Shown piece by piece: positions 1 to 32,330 of a stretch of DNA of 32,395 bases. Origin of the DNA: Leuconostoc inhae KCTC 3774 (GTDB lineage Bacteria; Bacillota; Bacilli; Lactobacillales; Lactobacillaceae); the NCBI GenBank assembly GCA_000166735.2, contig AEMJ01000222.1, positions 1 to 32,395 on the forward strand, given 5' to 3'. The number at the start of each line of letters is the position of its first letter. Position 1 is the first letter of the stretch. The notes beneath the pieces were generated by a model. The model worked only from the letters and a program-made list of their open reading frames with translations. It was not told where the DNA came from and searched no databases. Made by a program: the position numbers and the translations under genes.

Positions 1-189
1 CCAAGCTCAGAAGTACCAAGTTCAGAGACCCCAAGCTCGGAAACGCCAAGCTCAGAAGTACCAAGCTCAGAAACACCAAGTTCAGAGACCCCAAGTTCGG
101 AAGTACCAAGCTCAGAAACACCAAGCTCTGAAACACCAAGCTCGGAAGTACCAAGCTCGGAAACGCCAAGCCCAGAAGTACCAAGTTCA
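1..189 (+). repeat. 15-bp tandem repeat encoding PSSE(V/T), about 12.6 units
   Basis: Units start with CCAAGCTC or CCAAGTTC and repeat every 15 bp from the window edge to about 189. The fifth codon follows the order V T T V T T V T T V T V, so there is a 45-bp (VTT) higher-order period for most of the array. Synonymous changes (AGC/AGT is fixed by position, TCA/TCG, GAA/GAG) distinguish the units. The array continues off the left edge. Confidence 0.95.
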
Positions 190-351
190 CCAACTGTTAA
201 CGTATCCTATAAAGTGACTAACAAAAATAATAAAAAGTTACCAGACACTGGTGAAAATAAAAATAATCATACAGATGCTATTGCTGCGGCGTTAATAACT
301 AGTATCTTAGGTATTACCGCAGTTGCGCGTAAGAAAAAAGGCGATAATTAA
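1..351 (+). CDS. C-terminus of a repeat-rich LPxTG cell-wall-anchored surface protein (partial, 5' end outside window)
   Basis: Frame 1 is open from the window edge to TAA at 349-351. Residues 1-60 are twelve pentapeptides PSSEV or PSSET (the last is PSPEV). A short linker follows, then LPDTG at bases 238-252, a hydrophobic stretch (AIAAALITSILGITAVA) and a basic tail RKKKGDN. That is a sortase cell-wall sorting signal, so the protein is covalently attached to peptidoglycan. The Ser/Thr-rich stalk is a typical O-glycosylation substrate, and two or three accessory-Sec-type glycosyltransferase genes follow directly, so it is probably a serine-rich-repeat-type glycoprotein (inference). The N-terminal signal and binding domains lie outside the window. 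Confidence 0.93.
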   Translation, partial: PSSEVPSSETPSSETPSSEVPSSETPSSETPSSEVPSSETPSSETPSSEVPSSETPSPEVPSSPTVNVSYKVTNKNNKKLPDTGENKNNHTDAIAAALITSILGITAVARKKKGDN

Positions 352-441: not shown

Positions 442-1968
442 ATGCATGCAGTATTTGTTAATACATTCTATGCACATAATCTTTCTGGTGCAAGTTTTGC
501 AGTAGATCGACGGCTACAGTTATTTTTACGCCACAAGATAGAGACAACAATTATTAGTGCCGATTATTATTTAACTAATCGGTACTATTTTCATTATCAT
601 TTTCCTGAGTTAAGTCAGCATTTTTTAGACTTGCATGATATTTTGACCGGTAATATAGAGCGTGATGAAGTAGATGCTTGGTTACAATTTTATGAAGAAA
701 ATTCAGCATTTTATAGTTTTGATACTAATAAAAAAATTGCGACTGCTCAAAATGGTGTCTATTTAAGATGGCATAATTATGATGATGACCGCCTAATGTC
801 GGTGCATCACTACTCAAAAAGTAATAAATTATTGCGCAGCGATGAATACGATTGGCGTGGTTACTTGGCTGTGAGAGTGTATTATGCTGCTAAGCCTAAT
901 GGTGATCAAAGTTATGTCGTCAGCCGAGAACATTTAAACCCTGATGGGCAAACAGTGTTAACATATCATTTTACAAGTGATAGCCAAATTAGACGAATTG
1001 ATTGGAAAAACAGTGCTGGTCAGACTAAATATTTTAATCAAAAAAATGATTTGTTAGTCGCAGCGTTGAAATACTATTCAATGTTGATAGGTGATGAGGT
1101 TTTGATGATACTTGACTTATTCCATTCGGATACAATAGCCAAGTTACAGTCATTAAACACATTGGATAGTCTCTGTCTTATTGTGCAATTACACAATATT
1201 CAAGTTAAAAATACGCCTGAGGGTTCACCAACGCGAATTGGCTATAGCTATCCAGTACTGAATAGTGAAAAATATAGCGGATTGATTGTTTTGACAGAAC
1301 ATCAGCGTCAAGATGTGTTGGCCTTGGCTGACCCTGACCGCGTTTTTACAATAGCTGAAAACTGGTATGATGAACATGATGTGGCCACGCATGATGCTAT
1401 TAATTGGTCAGATAAGGAAGATGGTTTAGTTATCATTTCTGCGCGATATGACAAAACTAAGCAAATTGATCATGCTATTAAAGCAGTAATAACCGCGCAT
1501 GAAAGAACGCCTAATATTCACCTTGAAATATGGGGTGGTGGCAACGACAATGTGCAAAAAGAATTACAACAGATAATTGATACACACAAAGCTAATGAGT
1601 ATATTAAACTAATGGGTATTACTGATAACCAACATATGAAATATCGGTTTGCTCAGGCACAACTACATGTTTTAGTTTCAAAAAATGAAGGGTTACCAAT
1701 GGTTTTTTTCGAAGCTCAATTAGGTAAAACCCCCTCAATTAGTTATGATATTGATTATGGTCCATCTGAAATTATCACAAATAGAGTAAATGGGGATTTG
1801 ATTGCTGCAAATGATATTACTTATTTATCTTCAAGAATGATTGAATTGTTTCAGAATTCTGGCACTCTGGAACATTATTCTGAAAATTCAAGTCAAACAT
1901 TAATTAAATTTTGTGAAGAAGCAATTTGGCAAAAATGGGAAAATTTGATAAAGCAGGTATTTAGATAG
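442..1968 (+). CDS. GtfA-like glycosyltransferase (GT4 fold, accessory-Sec/TarM type)
   Basis: 508 aa, close to the ~500 aa of GtfA, the O-GlcNAc transferase that glycosylates serine-rich-repeat adhesins. The middle (about residues 110-200) is rich in short beta strands, as in the beta-meander domain of this family. The C-terminal half is a GT-B nucleotide-sugar domain, with ISARYDKTKQIDHAI near residue 330 and an E-x7-E motif (E416, E424) in NEGLPMVFFEAQ. The ATG has an AGGG stretch 5-7 nt upstream. The next gene's ATG directly follows the stop codon, so translation is probably coupled. It likely adds the first sugar on the upstream repeat protein. Family placement is strong; the donor sugar is inferred from the family. 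Confidence 0.82.
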   Translation: MHAVFVNTFYAHNLSGASFAVDRRLQLFLRHKIETTIISADYYLTNRYYFHYHFPELSQHFLDLHDILTGNIERDEVDAWLQFYEENSAFYSFDTNKKIATAQNGVYLRWHNYDDDRLMSVHHYSKSNKLLRSDEYDWRGYLAVRVYYAAKPNGDQSYVVSREHLNPDGQTVLTYHFTSDSQIRRIDWKNSAGQTKYFNQKNDLLVAALKYYSMLIGDEVLMILDLFHSDTIAKLQSLNTLDSLCLIVQLHNIQVKNTPEGSPTRIGYSYPVLNSEKYSGLIVLTEHQRQDVLALADPDRVFTIAENWYDEHDVATHDAINWSDKEDGLVIISARYDKTKQIDHAIKAVITAHERTPNIHLEIWGGGNDNVQKELQQIIDTHKANEYIKLMGITDNQHMKYRFAQAQLHVLVSKNEGLPMVFFEAQLGKTPSISYDIDYGPSEIITNRVNGDLIAANDITYLSSRMIELFQNSGTLEHYSENSSQTLIKFCEEAIWQKWENLIKQVFR

Positions 1969-2868
1969 ATGAAAGTCATCATAACAGAGAAAGTGACTAC
2001 TGAATTATTACATTTTGAAGATATAATTAATGAATCCATTCTTTTTATTTCATGGACGTCAACAATTGCATATCAGACGCGTGTCAATGAAATTAATTTG
2101 TTTTCTTTCATACGTCATCAAGAAAATGAGAATCTGCTATCGACCTTAGATTGGTTAGCACACTTTGTACTCAATTATCGTTCTGTACCAGGTAGTCATC
2201 AGTTTGAAATGCAAGATGAATTAGGTAAAATTTCAGTTAAAATTTATATGACTTCTAATACTAGTCACCAAGTTGAGCATGTTGATACATTTGATAAAAA
2301 TGATAATCGTGTCGAAATGCAACTTTACGACAAACACAGTACACGTCAAATGTTTACATACGATGAAAACGGTAGGCCTGTTACCAGCAAATTTAGTAGT
2401 AATGATGGCACCATTCAAATTACATTTTACTGGCTTTCTCAGAATGGGAAGCTTGAAAACACTGGTATGTCTTTAAAGCAAAAAAATCATGAGCAATTTT
2501 ACAATAGTTACTGGGATTGGCAGATCGAGCAATTTAAGCTGTTGATTGGAAATTGCTCGAATGTGAGTGAGGTAATCAGTTACGAGGCACCGTTATTATC
2601 GCTACATGTTCCCACTAAACGTGTGACTAAAAATGAGTTAAAAAAATTAGTAGCAATAAGTTCATATCAACAGAATAGAAAATCTAATTTTTGGATAGTA
2701 GATTTTGATCACCAAAATCACTGGAAACCAAGAACTGATATTGTTAAAGTGGCAACCAATATCGATAATAGAATATTCAAAAAAATGTCATTCTCATTCC
2801 CTTATATTGATGAAGAAGATTGGATAAAAAACAACTTAAAAATACAATTCACTGATTGGTCCAGGTGA
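1969..2868 (+). CDS. GtfB-like beta-meander domain running in frame into the Gtf3 N-terminus (hybrid, interrupted)
   Basis: 299 aa as read. About residues 60-210 resemble the N-terminal half of GtfB, the non-catalytic partner that forms the GtfA-GtfB O-GlcNAc transferase, with strands such as KNDNRVEMQLYDKHSTRQMF and DENGRPVTSKF. The C-terminal GT-like half of GtfB (the family is ~440 aa) is missing. From about residue 238 (NFWIVDFDHQNHW) the sequence instead looks like the start of a Gtf3-type transferase and continues in the next entry after frame breaks. Adding one A to each of the A-runs at 2826-2831, 2838-2842 and 2937-2942 joins both into one 576-aa frame. Either this is a GtfB-Gtf3 fusion or deletion hybrid, or a further undetected error hides a separate Gtf3 start. 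Confidence 0.6.
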   Translation: MKVIITEKVTTELLHFEDIINESILFISWTSTIAYQTRVNEINLFSFIRHQENENLLSTLDWLAHFVLNYRSVPGSHQFEMQDELGKISVKIYMTSNTSHQVEHVDTFDKNDNRVEMQLYDKHSTRQMFTYDENGRPVTSKFSSNDGTIQITFYWLSQNGKLENTGMSLKQKNHEQFYNSYWDWQIEQFKLLIGNCSNVSEVISYEAPLLSLHVPTKRVTKNELKKLVAISSYQQNRKSNFWIVDFDHQNHWKPRTDIVKVATNIDNRIFKKMSFSFPYIDEEDWIKNNLKIQFTDWSR

Positions 2869-2925
2869 TGTCATTGTCTGGCAATATCCAAAATTCTCAC
2901 CAAAACTTGAACTGGCTGTGATAAA

Positions 2926-3696
2926 ATGGGCAAGAGAAAAAATATTCTCATTGTTGCGCTTGTTCATGATGTGACTATGCTAAGAACTGATACCATTAAA
3001 TTAGCAAATTATAATTTGGAAACAGATAAAGCAGTTTTGCAATCATTTGATATTGTGATGTTACCACTACATTTTATTAGTGCATTAAAGAATTTGGGAA
3101 TTAATTTGAACAATACTATTGAACTAGCACCATATGATTTTTTATATGATCAAGTAATAACGCCAGCAAGTTATCAAAAACGAGTTGTGTATGCTGGTTC
3201 GCTTGCTAAGTTCCCTAATTTGGAGCAAATAAATTTTGATTTAACCGTTTATGGTGAAAAAAATTTTTCAAGTGTTGTGCTTAATCAGCCTCATATTAAA
3301 AACGGTGGTTTTGTTGAAGCAATGGATTTACCAGCAAAACTTTCGTCGGGATACGGATTAATATGGGATGAGTCAGACAACGATCCGCATTTGCAGCAAT
3401 ATACACAATGGAATTGGCCATACAAATTTAGTTTATATATGGTTTCTGGACTTCCTGTTGTTGCTTGGCGTGAATCAGCAATTGCTGATATCATACGGCA
3501 AAATAATGTTGGTGTAGTGATTTCGAACTTGTCTGACTTACATGATATGTTAGATAGTATTACTGAGGAAAGATATCAACAGATGGCAAATAATGCTGCC
3601 AATTTTGGAAAGCAATTAGCAATGGGTGCAACTACGAAACAAGTATTGAGTGATTTGAAAAAATTACTCGATAACAAGCAACTAATTAATTTATAG
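2926..3696 (+). CDS. Gtf3-family glycosyltransferase, main body (5' part frameshifted)
   Basis: 256 aa as read. Features typical of Gtf3-type transferases, which extend O-GlcNAc on serine-rich-repeat proteins and are often annotated as beta-1,6-galactofuranosyltransferase, include ILIVALVHDV near the start, FDIVMLPLHF, YAGSLAKFPN, GYGLIWDE and WPYKFSLYMVSGLPVVAW. Family members are ~330 aa. The missing N-terminus is visible upstream: bases 2864-2938 read GDVIVWQYPKFSP and on to KWARE in another frame, and one A missing from the run at 2937-2942 explains the shift. The ATG at 2926 is therefore an internal artefact start, not the true one. The stop lies 1 nt before the next ATG, consistent with an operon. 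Confidence 0.75.
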   Translation: MGKRKNILIVALVHDVTMLRTDTIKLANYNLETDKAVLQSFDIVMLPLHFISALKNLGINLNNTIELAPYDFLYDQVITPASYQKRVVYAGSLAKFPNLEQINFDLTVYGEKNFSSVVLNQPHIKNGGFVEAMDLPAKLSSGYGLIWDESDNDPHLQQYTQWNWPYKFSLYMVSGLPVVAWRESAIADIIRQNNVGVVISNLSDLHDMLDSITEERYQQMANNAANFGKQLAMGATTKQVLSDLKKLLDNKQLINL

Positions 3697-3697
3697 T

Positions 3698-4464
3698 ATG
3701 AGTTGGGGGGTGATTAAAATACGTAAATTTATATTATCGATTATTATAATTGCAGTTACTATCTTTACTTTCTCTGTTACTCTATCCACTGCTGATATGG
3801 CGGACACAAATGGTATAGCTACAGTATTTGGTAAATGCGATCCAAATGATACAATTGAAATTAGTCTACCAAATACAAAAATCATTCATGTGATACCAAA
3901 TAATGTTGGTGATTATAACATTGACATTAATGGATTATCGATAGGGGACACGGTCTATGCGACTGCAGTTAGCATTGATGGCAAAAAAAGTCAGCCAACA
4001 AAGCATACAATCACAGCAGCTGATATGATCGAACAAAATGCTGTACAAGACCATATCATAAAAACGTCCGAAATACATTCAAAGGTTTTACATGTAGATG
4101 AGAAATTGCACCTTAAAAAAGAGGATAACCCTTTTTTTGGTTGACTGTTCTGTTTGGTGTATCGGGTGTTACTGCGGGTGGTGCAACGTTTATAAACTCT
4201 CGCTTCCCAAAAGTTGAACGCTCCTTTTTTTCATTGGTGGGTTCAGGATTATTATGGCGAAGCCAACGAATCAGATATAAAGTTCGATTAGTAGGCAGAT
4301 TTTCTGGTTTAAATAAAAATTCTTTTTTGGATGTGACACCAGAAGAGTTGAATACTTTAGATACAAATGAGGAAGTAGAATTAAGCCAACAGTTCACAAG
4401 ATTTGAGATGAATGTATTTAATCGGCAAAATAATGGTGTAAAAATGGTACCAGTTGATGAGTAA
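3698..4464 (+). CDS. Ig-like-domain membrane protein of the glycosylation cluster (frameshifted at a T-run)
   Basis: It reads as 148 aa (3698-4144) and then an offset 107-aa frame (to 4464). Adding one T to the seven-T run at 4132-4138 gives one 255-aa protein with DNPFFWLTVLFGV across the join. Layout: an N-terminal hydrophobic signal or anchor (FILSIIIIAVTIFTF), a single bacterial Ig-like domain (about residues 35-100, with DTIEISLP and GDYNIDINGLSIGDTV), a second membrane span (WLTVLFGVSGVTAGGATFI), and a basic cytoplasmic tail of ~90 aa ending KMVPVDE. The ATG sits 1 nt after the gtf3 stop and lacks an obvious ribosome site, so coupling is likely. I do not recognise the whole protein. It does not resemble Asp1-3 or sortase; an auxiliary role in surface protein handling is only inferred from position. 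Confidence 0.6.
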
Positions 4465-5338
4465 CTTAGGTCCAGCAATGAAATATTATTTGTTGCAACG
4501 TAACATTTCAATCAAACAAATTGCTGATGAAACACATATGTCTAAAAGTTCACTATACGATTTTTTTAATGGAAAACATGAACTTGGAGCAACAAATTTT
4601 GTTTGTTTAATTCAGCATTTGAATATTGATTTTCATAATGTTATTGATGAATACCATAGTGCAGTTGATAACTCTGAGCGAAATATTGACACGGAATATA
4701 AAACGATTAAGCAACTTGAGACCAAGGATTTAACGAATTATTTATCTAATTTGGGGATTCACCAGACTGCTACTGTGTTAACCGATTTTATTGTACAGGC
4801 GCAGTATGAAGAGGAATTTAGCGAAAAAATTAGTGTGATACAAGATGTGGCACGTGACTTAGTGTTTGATAAATTAGATTATTATACAGTGGATGAACTG
4901 AATTTGTTTATTAATTTAGTTAGTATATCCCCCAACTTTAATTACATTTATGGGGTTTATTTGGATTGTGAAAGGTTATTCTCCAGACAAGATTTTAATG
5001 CGATGTATCGTAATCAATCAGAATCAATTCAACAACTATTAATGATTAGATTTAATATGATCGTATTATGTATGAAGCATCAGTCAAAAAATTTGGCCAA
5101 AAAAATTATTTGTCTGGCTCAACAACTCAAGGAAGTTATCGATGATATGTATTCTGTATTGTTGTTACGACTCATAGATGTTATAGAATTGATTATTTCA
5201 AAAAAAGAAGAACGTGCAAAAAATTTGTATGATAACATTTTTTCTGCAATGTCTTACTTTTTACCAGCAACAGGTCAGTTTCGTTTTGAAATGTTATTTC
5301 TGAATTCTTTTGAACAATTCAAACAGACTCTAGAATGA
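4457..5338 (+). CDS. Rgg/GadR/MutR-type transcriptional regulator
   Basis: About 293 aa from the ATG at 4457; the preceding TTG is a less likely start. The N-terminal helix-turn-helix (residues ~8-60: YYLLQRNISIKQIADETHMSKSSLYDFFNGK) is followed by ~230 residues of helical, TPR-like sequence, the usual Rgg layout and length. Rgg proteins are often switched by short secreted peptides. No convincing SHP-like peptide gene was seen next to it. The ATG overlaps the end of the Ig-like gene by 8 nt, so the regulator is probably co-transcribed with the glycosylation genes and may control them (inference). Confidence 0.78.
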   Translation: MSNLGPAMKYYLLQRNISIKQIADETHMSKSSLYDFFNGKHELGATNFVCLIQHLNIDFHNVIDEYHSAVDNSERNIDTEYKTIKQLETKDLTNYLSNLGIHQTATVLTDFIVQAQYEEEFSEKISVIQDVARDLVFDKLDYYTVDELNLFINLVSISPNFNYIYGVYLDCERLFSRQDFNAMYRNQSESIQQLLMIRFNMIVLCMKHQSKNLAKKIICLAQQLKEVIDDMYSVLLLRLIDVIELIISKKEERAKNLYDNIFSAMSYFLPATGQFRFEMLFLNSFEQFKQTLE

Positions 5339-5672
5339 GTATAGCTTGATGAATTGATTTAATAATGCTCTCTAATAATAAATAAGAAGCTAGTAGACGA
5401 ACCATACTGCAGTATTATTGTCTTCGATTGTGCTTATTCAGGCTGTGGTTGTTCGAATATAACAATCATTTACTTATGTTTTGAACTTGATCTGTCATCA
5501 TGGACTGCAAATATTTTACAGTTGATTTTGTACAACGACTATTACAATATTTGCAATTTTTGTGTGTCATAATTTACTTCGAATTTATGACATTCGTTTT
5601 ATAAACCAATAAACTATGATAAAATAAAATATAGTTCGTTATTAACAGATAAATAGTTATTTTTTTGTCAGA
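5339..5672. other. 334-bp non-coding gap with two inverted repeats
   Basis: No supported gene. There are two hairpins: TGCAAATATT (5506-5515) with AATATTTGCA (5546-5555), a 30-nt spacer that itself contains GTTG/CAAC; and TGTCATAA (5565-5572) with TTATGACA (5585-5592). Neither is followed by a clean T-run. They could be regulator sites or the 3' ends of the two convergent transcripts (rgg and the dCMP deaminase). Confidence 0.5.
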
Positions 5673-6227: not shown

Positions 6228-7069
6228 ATGACTGAAATACTCGATGGTGCAGCAGTAGCCAAAATTACAAACGAAAAACTGCTGAACGTGTTTCACGGTT
6301 GAATAAACCGGTGACTCTTGCTGTCATTTACGATCCCAAAAATGATGGTAGTCGTTTATATGTTGGTATGAAATCCAAAAAAGCAGCGGCATTAGGTATC
6401 ACAACACTAGATATTCCAACTGATGAAAATGCGACAACGGCAAGTGTGATTAAACTAGTTGAAGAGCTTAATGCAGATGAGCATGTTACTGGTATTTTGG
6501 TCCAAAGTCCACTGGCTAAAGGTGTGAAAGAACGTGAAATTTTTTCTGCCGTGGCGCCACATAAAGACGCTGATGGACTAGGTGCTACCGTGCAGGGTAT
6601 GTTGTTTGGTGACGCACTAGAAGATTATACCGTTGCTGCAACACCACAAGGTGTGATGACACTGTTACATCATTATAATATTGAGATGTTTCGTAAAAGT
6701 GCTGTTGTTATCGGACGCTCTCAGTTATTTGGTCGACCAATGTTTGCGTTATTAACAAATGCAGATGCAACAGTCACATTAGCGCATCGTTATACGCCTG
6801 AAGCCATGTTAAAGGCGCAATTGAAGGTGGCAGATATTGTTGTCGTTGGTGTCGGTATACCACACTTTATTTCGGGAGCAGATTTAAAATCTGGTGCTGT
6901 TGTCGTTGATGTCGGTATGAATTATGTTAACGGAAAAGCAGTTGGGGATGTTGACTTTGAATCAGCACAAGGCGTTGCAAGTTACATCACGCCAGTACCT
7001 GGTGGTGTTGGGCCAATGACAATTGCAACGTTATTAGAAAACACTGTTTCATTAGCAGAAAAATATTAA
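6228..7069 (+). CDS. folD: FolD, methylene-THF dehydrogenase/cyclohydrolase (one frameshift)
   Basis: The bifunctional enzyme interconverts 5,10-methylene-, methenyl- and 10-formyl-THF in the cytosol. The ATG at 6228 follows AAGGAG and begins MTEILDGAAVAK as expected, but the frame stops at 6300. Adding one A to the five-A run at 6274-6278 restores NEKTAERVSRLNKPV and joins the remaining frame, for 280 aa, the usual length. Conserved blocks: YVGMKSKKAAALG with the catalytic Lys, QSPLAKGV, PHKDADG (usually KDVDG), VIGRSQLFGRPM for NADP binding, and PVPGGVGPMT near the C-terminus. The annotated-looking start near 6299 is not real. A terminator follows. Confidence 0.92.
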
Positions 7070-7077
7070 TAATAATG

Positions 7078-7115
7078 AAAAAAACCATTGGTAAATTAAT
7101 TACTAATGGTTTTTT
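7078..7115. terminator. Bidirectional terminator between folD and the CHY gene
   Basis: An A-run, then CCATTGGTAA pairing with TTACTAATGG, then six T. A-run and T-run on both flanks fit termination of folD (plus) and of the convergent bioY-CHY unit (minus). Confidence 0.85.
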
Positions 7116-7137
7116 GTATTATTCTCTGCTATTGATC

Positions 7138-7440
7138 TTAACAAAAATAAATATCATGATGCAAATGACAACGCGGATTAAATTCATGTTGACATCTAGG
7201 ACATCTTATACACGAAATATAGGTATCGCCTGTCATTTCTAATTGACAGATGCCACACATGACACTTATCTGTGACATATGCATGGGCTGAAATGTATGA
7301 GTCATCAATGAATCGTGACAAAGTGCGCAGGCAAAATATCTCTGACATTGTTGGCACATATTAGCAATGACATCACAAGATTGATGCCAATGTTGACAGC
7401 GACCAGCTTCATCAAGAGAAAGTCCAAAAATTTCAGACAT
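7138..7440 (-). CDS. CHY-type zinc finger protein
   Basis: 100 aa with many Cys and His. It contains CQHWHQSCDVIA, CQQCQRYFACALCHD, CGICQ and CPRCQHEFNPRCHLHHDIYFC, the paired-ligand pattern of the CHY zinc finger family (often ~100 aa in Firmicutes). It probably binds two or three zinc ions; its function in bacteria is not established. The ATG overlaps the end of the restored bioY frame by 8 nt (cATGTCTGA), so the two are translationally coupled and under the same BirA-like operator. Confidence 0.85.
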   Translation of the reverse strand: MSEIFGLSLDEAGRCQHWHQSCDVIANMCQQCQRYFACALCHDSLMTHTFQPMHMSQISVMCGICQLEMTGDTYISCIRCPRCQHEFNPRCHLHHDIYFC

Positions 7441-7977
7441 GATATAAAATACGAAAACGGCGACGCAATGTGAGTGTTATTATGGTTGCTATAACAGCTT
7501 TGATAATGTCACCAGGAATGAATGCCAATTGGAAAGTAAGTGCCTTAGTTAATGGCATATGTGTCACAATATGCAAACCAAAAGCACCAGAAATATCAAT
7601 TAAAAAACACCAAATATTAAAATAGTTAAAAACATTGTGAAAAAATTTGTATAATTTAAATGATCAAGATAAGTTATCGTCAATCCAATAAGTAAGGCAG
7701 CGAATGGATATGCCCAAAGATAGCCTGCTGTTGCACTGAAAAATGCTGGTAAACCACCAGTGCCACCAGTCAAAACAGGTAAACCTATTGCAGCTAAAAA
7801 CAACCATACAATGATAGCTAGAAAGCCATTGCGCCACCCTAATAGAGCACCAGCTAACATGATGCCAATATTTTGAATCGTAATTGGTACAATTCCAAGT
7901 GGTATTGTAGGTACGTAGGCCATGACAACAAGCAGGGCAATCATTACCACGGTAAGCGTTAGTTTTTGTGTTTTCAT
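7433..7977 (-). CDS. bioY: BioY, biotin ECF transporter S component (one frameshift)
   Basis: An integral membrane protein that captures biotin for the energy-coupling-factor transporter. The first 125 aa have BioY features: PTIPLGIVPITIQNIGIMLAG, LLGWRNGFLAIIVWLFLAAIGLPV and GGTGGLPAFFSATAGYLWAYP. The frame then stops at 7600. Adding one T (minus strand) to the six-T run (plus-strand A at 7602-7607) continues it with LIDISGAFGLHIVT and PGDIIKAVIATIITLTLRRRF to a TGA at 7433, giving 181 aa, normal length. AAGGAAG precedes the ATG. No biotin synthesis genes are visible, which suggests scavenging. Confidence 0.9.
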
Positions 7978-7988
7978 GTTTCTTCCTT

Positions 7989-8020
7989 TTGTAAACTTTT
8001 TTATTTATATAAGTTTACAA
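7989..8020 (-). promoter_or_regulatory. BirA-like operator over the bioY promoter
   Basis: TTGTAAAC (7989-7996), 16 bp, GTTTACAA (8013-8020). This matches the Firmicutes BirA pattern of an inverted TTGTTAAC-like pair with ~15-bp spacing. On the minus strand a TTGACA (8035-8040) lies 17 bp from TAAACT (8012-8017), which falls inside a half-site. Biotin-loaded BirA would therefore block RNA polymerase. Confidence 0.75.
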
Positions 8021-8044
8021 TTAAAACAACGCCTTGTCAACAAT

Positions 8045-8083
8045 AAAAAACTGCTGTTAGATAAAGATTAACAGCAGTTTTTT
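8045..8083. terminator. Terminator downstream of busR
   Basis: A perfect 15-bp stem (AAAAAACTGCTGTTA at 8045-8059, complement at 8069-8083) with a 9-nt loop and T/A runs on both sides. It ends the minus-strand busR transcript before the bioY promoter. Confidence 0.9.
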
Positions 8084-8092
8084 AGGTAGTTA

Positions 8093-8710
8093 TTAATGAT
8101 AAAAAAAGTTTTGAACAGCTTGAACAGCAGTTTCATTCCCAACAAAATATAAGGTATCTCCACGTTCAATAACGGCGTAAGGGCCAGGAGATACAACCAG
8201 CTCATCATCATGTAATAAAGCAACAATCGTTGTACCAGTACTCTGCCATAAGGTAAGCGTACCAATAGATTGACCAAATTTGGGGCTATCATCACTTAAT
8301 GCTAACTCATATGGACTCAGTGGGCTATGACGCTGAACACGTTGACTTTGTTCAAGTAACAATGTTAAAGCATTCTCCATTGATTTAATTTCTTGTTTTT
8401 GATTGGTAATGAGATCGTTTATTTGTTTGTGAATTGTTTGAATGTCAGATGTTGTCTGTGCTTGATTTAAAAATGCCTTGGCTTTTTCGCGAGACAGAAC
8501 TTCAACACCACTGCCATGTATCAGTTTAACAATCTGAAGGTCTGCTAGAATACTGACAGCTTTACGTGCTGTTTCAGATGATACACCAAAGGCGACGGAT
8601 AACGTTGATCTAGCATGTAGTTTGCTACCAACAGCATATTCGTTGTCGGCTATTTTTTGCGCGATTTGATACGCTATTTTGCGGTATCTTGGTTCTCTGA
8701 TTGTTTGCAT
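8093..8710 (-). CDS. busR: BusR, GntR-type HTH with RCK_C/TrkA-C domain, repressor of betaine uptake
   Basis: 205 aa from the ATG at 8710, chosen because GGAGA lies 5 nt upstream; the upstream ATG at 8752 has no ribosome site and lies within the operator area. Residues 1-70 form a winged helix of the GntR type (AYQIAQKIADNEYAVGSKL, ARSTLSVAFGVSSETARKAV). A coiled-coil-like segment follows (~95-125), then a RCK_C domain (SIGTLTLWQSTGTTIVALL, VVSPGPYAVIERGDTLYFVG). This is the BusR architecture; in Lactococcus and Streptococcus, BusR binds c-di-AMP and represses busA. The divergent position next to busAA-busAB fits exactly. Confidence 0.9.
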   Translation of the reverse strand: MQTIREPRYRKIAYQIAQKIADNEYAVGSKLHARSTLSVAFGVSSETARKAVSILADLQIVKLIHGSGVEVLSREKAKAFLNQAQTTSDIQTIHKQINDLITNQKQEIKSMENALTLLLEQSQRVQRHSPLSPYELALSDDSPKFGQSIGTLTLWQSTGTTIVALLHDDELVVSPGPYAVIERGDTLYFVGNETAVQAVQNFFYH

Positions 8711-30788: not shown

Positions 30789-31460
30789 TTAATTGTTAAA
30801 AATGTTAGCAAAGCCACTTTTGAGGTCATTGTTTTGTGTTTCAGAGAAGTATAAATCGTCACCATTTGTTGTACGTGAAATATAAACTTTTGGTTGATTA
30901 TTTTGTATAACAAAGAAATATAAGGCCATGTTAAAATTATTTTTTGATACTTTACCAGAGGCAATTGCTACGACTTTGTTTGCTGATTCGCCAGAACCAT
31001 CTGGGGACCAAGTGACAGCTGTAGTTACTTCATCAAACTTAATATGATTGTTATATTTACCATTTGTAAGGTCAATTGGGAAAGTTATGCCATAGTAATT
31101 TGGTTCTTGCCCGTCATAAGTCCCAACAAAGGACTGATCCATTTTTGATTGCCATGCTGACATAAAAGATGATAGTTTATTTTGTTTGTCAGCTGACCAA
31201 GTTGCTTTTGTACTATTATTACTTGAAGCACTCGTGTTAGTGTCATTGTTACTAGATGAATTAGTTATTGTTGCGTTGCTGCTTGACGAAGAACTACTTT
31301 TCAAACTAGAAGATTTTAATTGTGCTGAGATTGTCGCTTTTGAAGTGTGGTGTTGTGCCTGATCTGTGGGTTTGCTCTGTTTATAAATCACACCAACTAT
31401 GACGAATATTGCCACTATTGTAGACAATATCAATATGCTATTTCTTTGCTTTGAAGTCAT
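30789..31460 (-). CDS. DUF4767 domain membrane-anchored protein
   Basis: 223 aa. An N-terminal TM or uncleaved signal (SILILSTIVAIFVIVGVIY, residues 8-26), a ~55-residue Ser/Thr/Asn linker, then a DUF4767 domain starting TWSADKQNKLSSFMSAWQSK and containing FVGTYDGQEPNYYG and VTTAVTWSPDG. No lipobox Cys. The protein should be displayed outside the membrane. The domain is common in lactobacilli and Leuconostoc; function not known. Frame intact. Confidence 0.82.
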   Translation of the reverse strand: MTSKQRNSILILSTIVAIFVIVGVIYKQSKPTDQAQHHTSKATISAQLKSSSLKSSSSSSSNATITNSSSNNDTNTSASSNNSTKATWSADKQNKLSSFMSAWQSKMDQSFVGTYDGQEPNYYGITFPIDLTNGKYNNHIKFDEVTTAVTWSPDGSGESANKVVAIASGKVSKNNFNMALYFFVIQNNQPKVYISRTTNGDDLYFSETQNNDLKSGFANIFNN

Positions 31461-32000: not shown

Positions 32001-32330
32001 TTATTTACGTTGATCTCTACTTGAGAATGATGTGTAATTTGACAAAGTCCTTAATACCTGAGGAAATTGGAAATGTTGATCGGTATTGTTATTTAATTTG
32101 AAAATAGTGGATAAATTTTTAACTATTGAATGAATAATTATAATCATTGCTCTTTTTGAAGGATGATTAGTTAAAATAACTTTAAATTGATAATTTTTTG
32201 GATGTTTATTTACAATTTTGAGATTACCAGTCCAGTTGGTGTGACTAAAAGTATAGTCTGGTAGAAAGTTTTTTGCTAATTCAATATCGTGATAAATTGT
32301 TTCACCATATTGGCCATATAAAAGATCCAT
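32001..32330 (-). CDS. Hypothetical protein, 109 aa
   Basis: The frame from ATG 32330 is intact but no strong ribosome site is visible. Possible beta-rich first half (TGNLKIVNKHPKNYQFKVIL) and a hydrophobic patch (AMIIIIHSIV). Not recognised; the C-terminal third (FSSRDQRK) is low-complexity and may reflect a frameshift. It could be a fragment. Confidence 0.35.
   Translation of the reverse strand: MDLLYGQYGETIYHDIELAKNFLPDYTFSHTNWTGNLKIVNKHPKNYQFKVILTNHPSKRAMIIIIHSIVKNLSTIFKLNNNTDQHFQFPQVLRTLSNYTSFSSRDQRK

Follow-up and report, generated by a model that had tools for sequence, protein, structure and literature searches.

The window analysed here, a stretch of 32,395 nucleotides from Leuconostoc inhae KCTC 3774, is contig C672 of a draft assembly with 893 contigs. 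Its left end holds the following genes and features.

1..351, forward strand: serine-rich (PSSE[VT]) repeat protein, C-terminal end only because the contig start cuts the gene; LPDTG wall-anchor motif (Pfam Gram_pos_anchor, 9.2e-08)
442..1968, forward strand: SdgA/GtfA-like GT4 enzyme with its own beta-sheet lobe, presumed to catalyse the first step (NCBIfam, motif, tree)
1969..3696, forward strand: fusion gene (beta-sheet lobe plus GT113), split here and a single intact ORF in three relatives
1969..2646, forward strand: N-terminal lobe of the fusion, putatively for docking (hhalign with shuffle control, alignment, and a weak NCBIfam SdgA match of 2.9e-05, below cut-off)
2674 (approximate start)..3696, forward strand: GT113 (Gtf3/GtfC-like) domain of the fusion (phmmer, alignment)
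2826..2943 (about), forward strand: stretch with several A runs in which the frame changes
3698..4464, forward strand: Ig-like protein (Big_6, below cut-off), split into 148 + 107 aa; one 258-aa ORF in L. gelidum
4454..5338, forward strand: HTH regulator, weakly similar to AimR (below cut-off)
5582, no strand: right edge of the island, from which the window is 99.0% identical to the same-species genome G004

In the window the fusion gene is read as two open reading frames (ORFs), 1969-2868 (299 aa) and 2926-3696 (256 aa), with a frame change at A runs. The initial annotation had joined these ORFs, by three repairs in A runs, into a restored frame of 576 aa that would, if real, fuse the beta-meander half of GtfB to a Gtf3-type enzyme. 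Both ORFs are present as described, and the restored length is borne out by an intact relative of exactly 576 aa in L. gelidum KCTC 3527 (L002:643-2373, reverse strand, identical to L006:1994-3724, forward strand). Genome G005 includes the record stretch L006 letter for letter in its contig C34, and its 576-aa protein is 88% identical to the N-terminal and 92% identical to the C-terminal ORF of the window. Single uninterrupted fusion ORFs also occur in G008 (568 aa) and G009 (569 aa), at 42-46% identity to the G005 fusion. Between the window and G005, dN/dS is 0.14 for the GT4 partner gene, 0.25 for the N-terminal half of the fusion and 0.17 for its C-terminal half, values that are pairwise and cannot prove gene use in the window's own lineage. 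The intact ORFs in three other genomes and the low pairwise dN/dS indicate that the fusion family is real and maintained.

Frames are broken elsewhere in the assembly as well, in folD, in the gene at 3698-4464 and in the accessory Sec (aSec) genes on contig C99. Alignment of the window's flank with G004 (3,164 columns) reveals 3 indels, two of which lie within A runs of 6 and 7. Because other genes are split too, and because two of the three indels relative to G004 fall in A runs, the frame breaks of the window are probably sequencing errors. The folD gene (named by eye) is interrupted at about 6228-6300, with no full-length ORF in the window, and has a full ORF of 280-281 aa in G004 (280 aa), G005 and G008, itself a hint of sequencing errors in the draft.

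The N-terminal lobe comprises ~225 residues of the extended beta-sheet (DUF1975) type of the GtfA/GtfB/SdgA superfamily. In its alignment the first Rossmann segment is shortened, the beta-meander is followed by a return helix and strand, and the SGIEHA loop motif is missing; the names of these elements were assigned by analogy with relatives. A profile of five lobe sequences scored 87.7 in hhalign against 25 SdgA-like GT4 enzymes (residues 39-172) and 56.4 against 11 GtfB sequences, a ranking biased by the composition of the SdgA-like set, which comes mostly from loci L103-L124, fetched for their matching N-lobe. Column-shuffled controls rose to at most 27.0 (SdgA-like) and 26.4 (GtfB), and the real score was reached by 0 of 60 shuffles in each case. 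The hhalign probability was 4.6% against a profile of 8 GtfA sequences and 0.1% against the 9 GtfA-like enzymes encoded beside a shorter protein that we call half GtfB. By these profile comparisons the lobe is placed in the GtfA/GtfB/SdgA superfamily rather than with GtfB specifically. The earlier identification of the N-terminal half as GtfB is accordingly kept as regards the beta-sheet lobe common to GtfA, GtfB, SdgA and SdgB and given up as regards a GtfB-specific relationship.

The structures of these relatives suggest that the lobe may bind the acceptor. It is acidic, with a net charge of -6 to -13, where SdgB is reported to have a positive groove, and so does not readily suggest a platform for acidic repeats. 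A Pfam search with both halves of the fusion returned nothing above cut-off, and an AlphaFold prediction of the intact 576-aa relative was unusable (mean pLDDT 35) and gave no structural confirmation of the fold.

A closest relationship of the lobe to the ~280-aa half GtfB (18 sequences) was considered and rejected, as the hhalign score of 22.6 was reached by 2 of 60 shuffles. Half GtfB itself matches only the N-terminal part of TIGR02919, and weak matches to it are present in all 19 genus genomes. At L088:1653-3110 and 3107-3952 it follows a GtfA-like enzyme (~485 aa), and a pgk gene (by eye) lies after the pair in L087 and L088. This pair may be the general O-glycosylation pair known from L. 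plantarum.

The C-terminal ~340 residues of the fusion are a divergent GT113 domain related to Gtf3/GtfC. In phmmer they match the solved Gtf3/GtfC chains 4w6q (9.4e-20), 3qkw (2.2e-14) and 9hu9 (9.2e-10). Roles for the Gtf3 residues Asp101, Arg179 and Lys246 are given in the available text of PMC12809243; all four sequences that cover these positions retain the Asp101 and Lys246 counterparts and have Lys in place of Arg179 (S. parasanguinis numbering, with an offset of 2 assumed for the 3qkw chain). The domain falls below every NCBIfam cut-off compared, PRK09814 equivalogs included, its best score being 170.8 bits against a cut-off of 529, and the aSec gtf3 of G004 passes its own (561 against 491 bits). 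Several of the sister models, among them the best-scoring ones, are named (beta-1,6-)galactofuranosyltransferase, all of them with scores below cut-off. These sub-threshold scores and model names leave the donor sugar uncertain. A Gtf3-type C-terminal half, as first proposed, thus holds in the sense of homology to the solved enzymes, with the qualification that the domain is divergent and under all NCBIfam cut-offs compared. The absence of the C-terminal GT-like half of GtfB was correctly recognised: the C-terminal half is GT113, and none of the TIGR02919 matches in the genus lies at a fusion gene. Among 41 GT113-type sequences placed in a tree, the three fusions group as a single clade (100/100), whose position beside the aSec gtf3 of G004 and G016 is weakly supported (86/86); this tree and that of the GT4 partners both carry program warnings of long branches meeting.

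The lobe is narrowly distributed. A search with the N-terminal ORF matched five of 19 genus genomes (G000, which is the window's own genome, G005, G008, G009 and G012), and the plasmid records held no match to this ORF at a limit of 1e-5. The lobe profile matched 25 of 397 family genomes, comprising the five carriers at E < 1e-110 and 20 weak matches (E between 7e-6 and 9e-4, frame length 445-569 aa), as well as 6 of 395 genomes in the order sample (2 carriers and 4 weak matches) and 1 of 398 in the class sample, the window itself. Across the family, order and class samples, which overlap with one another, with the genus sample and with the family sample of 301 genomes used below, strong matches came solely from Leuconostoc. 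Of 301 family genomes, 131 matched when the whole fusion served as query. Apart from four, the matches listed start no earlier than residue 249 and cover the GT113 half only; no row for G008 is among them. Five genomes carry the lobe, and three an intact fusion. Frames of 734-746 aa found elsewhere were considered as similar fusions and rejected: L086 has two adjacent ORFs with a stop between them, and the GT113 ORF of L097 is 361 aa long (a third such match is in G087). In open-licence literature, searched by titles and abstract openings, no description of this fusion was found.

The gene immediately upstream of the fusion encodes a GT4 enzyme with its EX7E motif intact (EGLPMVFFE at residue 416). 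It matches the NCBIfam models for SdgA (1.1e-52), SdgB (1.3e-40) and GtfA (5e-29), all below cut-off, and in the tree the partner enzymes form their own clade of five on a long branch. The order of serine-rich wall-anchored repeat protein, GT4 partner and fusion recurs; G008 and G009 show it in full, and the contigs of the window, G005 and G012 have their edge inside the repeats. The repeat protein or its end adjoins the partner in all five lobe carriers. The initial annotation had suggested looking for the same architecture beside repeat proteins in relatives, and it is indeed found there, in G008 and G009 and, at a contig edge, in G005. The repeat protein of G008 (L090:9202-11838, 878 aa) combines a KxYKxGKxW signal with an L-type lectin domain and PSSE[VT] repeats; in that of G009 (L091:9634-12327, 897 aa) a signal of this type accompanies an ice-binding-like adhesive domain and TPES/APES repeats. 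The repeat protein at 1..351 is the likely acceptor in the window.

The anchor motif varies among the five carriers, being LPDTG in the window and G005, LPKTD in G008, LPNTD in G009 and LPDTN in G012, so that a true LPxTG is present only in the first two; the places are window 240-300, L089:14065-14442, L090:9202-11838, L091:9634-12327 and L092:12680-13246. Downstream of the fusion, the HTH regulator at 4454..5338 possibly regulates the island, through a peptide-sensing control of the repeat protein. Near the window's right end lie genes for a DUF4767 protein (30789-31460) and a small CBM49-like protein (32001-32330).

G012 carries the lobe alone, as an open frame of 222 codons (L092:10410-11078) beside the GT4 partner and the end of the repeat protein. 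Homology between G012 and G009 ends at fusion codon 221 and resumes 96 bp past the end of the fusion. This open lobe without a GT113 half, together with the break in homology, argues that the lobe is a separable unit. The G012 partner is sister to that of G009 (100/100 in the tree) and the remaining carriers are fused, so loss of the GT113 half in G012 is the simpler reading. Between G012 and G009 the lobe has a dN of 0.19 and a dS of 0.80, which implies that the G012 lobe is not simply decayed, though most of this divergence may predate the cut.

The relationship of the fusion locus to the accessory Sec system was assessed across the 19 genus genomes, in which canonical GtfB passes its cut-off in 9 and SecY2 in 7. 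Two lobe carriers, G009 and G012, have both over cut-off. GtfB also passes its cut-off in G000, where SecY2 is represented only by two sub-threshold pieces on C99. In the fusion carriers G005 and G008 neither canonical GtfB nor SecY2 scores over cut-off, and from these two of the five carriers the module appears to be independent of the accessory Sec system. Wherever both are present, the fusion locus is separate from the aSec cluster. In the window's genome that cluster lies on C99 (L094:1-13762), apart from the fusion locus and with many frame breaks; it comprises the SecY2 pieces, GtfA and GtfB, identified by family search, and SecA2, Asp-like, Gtf3 and GT8-like genes, identified by eye. 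Two further genomes have another two-enzyme arrangement, tandem pairs of lobe-bearing GT4 enzymes (G003, L095:4324-7454; G018, L096:3889-6983), followed in L096 by a 505-aa ORF (6991-8508) that is Asp1-like by eye.

The initial annotation held that separate full-length gtfB and gtf3 genes at this site in a related genome would speak against the fusion. G004 does have separate full-length gtf3, gtfA and gtfB genes, and the window's genome has broken ones on C99, but they sit in the aSec cluster and not at the fusion locus, so the objection applies in appearance only. In G004 the aSec genes are followed by an acetyltransferase gene and thyA (read by eye) and then by a dCMP deaminase-like gene, and in G008 the fusion locus adjoins acetyltransferase and thyA genes. 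From base 5582 rightwards the window is 99.0% identical to G004 (3,164 aligned columns). Elsewhere the island gave no match to the 17 kb of G004 used for comparison, after exclusion of rows that begin no later than window base 300, and the N-terminal ORF was not found anywhere in the G004 genome. Since the window contig begins inside the repeats, we can only infer that in this genome the island directly follows thyA.

We think it likely that the gene encodes a genuine fused glycosyltransferase belonging to a small Leuconostoc module for adhesin O-glycosylation, in which the partner primes and the fusion docks and extends within one complex. The GT4 partner would add the first sugar, probably GlcNAc, to Ser/Thr residues in the repeats of the adjacent wall-anchored protein. 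The lobe of the fusion would dock on the partner's lobe, on the repeat chain or on both, and the GT113 domain would then add the second sugar within the same complex. A single chain would in this way both dock, as the lobe of GtfB (or of SdgA/SdgB) does, and extend, as Gtf3/GtfC do. This type of domain forms dimers in S. aureus SdgB and binds the SD repeats there, whether these are modified or not (PMC8561734). DUF1975 is described as mediating both the contact between GtfA and GtfB and their contact with the acceptor (PMC6973325), and GtfC as the catalyst of the second step (PMC6973325, PMC6291802). We put forward more tentatively, as a possibility that falls somewhat short of even chances, that the module is a minimal two-enzyme machine independent of aSec, in which the obligatory GtfB-like docking subunit was turned into the second-step enzyme, priming and extension being coupled, and from which one species has shed the catalytic half and left a GtfB-like lobe.

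The strongest competing explanation, although unlikely, is that the lobe is merely an acceptor-tracking or self-oligomerising module of the second-step enzyme, as in SdgA acting after SdgB, and that the partner works without it, leaving no GtfB-like chaperone role. This would fit the higher score of the lobe with SdgA-type enzymes than with GtfB, a ranking biased by an SdgA-like set mostly picked by matches to the lobe. It would also fit the partner, which scores higher with the SdgA and SdgB models than with that of GtfA (all below cut-off). SdgA and SdgB, moreover, are both lobe-bearing and act in sequence, according to the available text of PMC8561734. The lobe that stands without a GT113 half in G012, on the other hand, hints at a use of the lobe that does not involve a catalytic domain.

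We regard it as quite improbable that the GT113 half acts on some other acceptor, for example by galactofuranosyl transfer to a polysaccharide, with the neighbouring repeat protein incidental. The names of the best NCBIfam models and the abundance of lobe-less GT113-type genes in the family would allow this, but it leaves unaccounted for the recurring three-gene order and the presence of an adhesin-type lobe on the same chain, and the fusions group in the tree beside aSec gtf3 genes, albeit at just 86/86. An assembly artefact or a deletion disabling GtfB, the latter raised as an alternative in the initial annotation, by which the fused frame would be absent from the cell, is suggested by the split copy in a fragmented assembly with other broken frames (folD, the C99 aSec genes) but is already refuted at the family level by the intact ORFs in three other genomes and the low dN/dS, and with flank indels that lie mostly in A runs and so fit sequencing error we give it next to no credence.

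On our preferred reading of a fused docking and extending enzyme, the architecture indicates that the beta-sheet lobe, an organiser of adhesin glycosylation, is a docking module portable between enzymes, carried here on a GT113 instead of a GT4 catalytic domain. The natural junction makes it testable how successive glycosyltransferases find the same repeat chain, and the fusion may serve as a ready-made scaffold for glycoengineering.

The catalytic core of SdgA and SdgB belongs to family GT4. These staphylococcal O-GlcNAc transferases of SD-repeat adhesins resemble the present system, as portrayed in the available part of PMC8561734, in having a serine-rich wall adhesin encoded alongside, a lobe on both enzymes and two sequential steps. 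They differ in that both have the same kind of core as the partner, whereas here the second chain is a truncated lobe joined to a GT113 domain. A lobe and a GT4 core in one chain are accordingly found in the partner (442-1968) and not in the fusion, and a serine-rich wall-anchored repeat protein, or its end, is adjacent in each of the five carriers. The first glycosylation by GtfE and GtfF of S. salivarius JIM8777 is likewise carried out by two linked enzymes encoded outside secA2/Y2, and the accessible portion of that account describes no fusion of the two (PMC6973325). With the aSec priming complex GtfA-GtfB our system shares a GT4 enzyme and a lobe-bearing second protein, which in that complex interact via DUF1975 (PMC6973325, in the part available). 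GtfB is unlike the fusion in its GT-B-like second half (TIGR02919, 438 positions), which the fusion lacks; the fusion has the DUF1975 lobe and has neither a GT-B-like C-terminal half of its own, nor a TIGR02919 score above cut-off, nor a location in a secA2/secY2 locus. Gtf3/GtfC (GT113) has a homologous catalytic domain in which the counterparts of Asp101 and Lys246 are kept; its solved chains of 332-354 residues stand in contrast to the fusion, with a lobe of ~225 aa ahead of the domain and scores below the equivalog cut-offs compared. Fusion of glycan-assembly functions for an SRRP in one protein is also seen in dGT1 of S. parasanguinis, which in the available description combines two catalytic domains for later steps (PMC5063993), whereas the Leuconostoc fusion combines a lobe with the presumed second-step enzyme.
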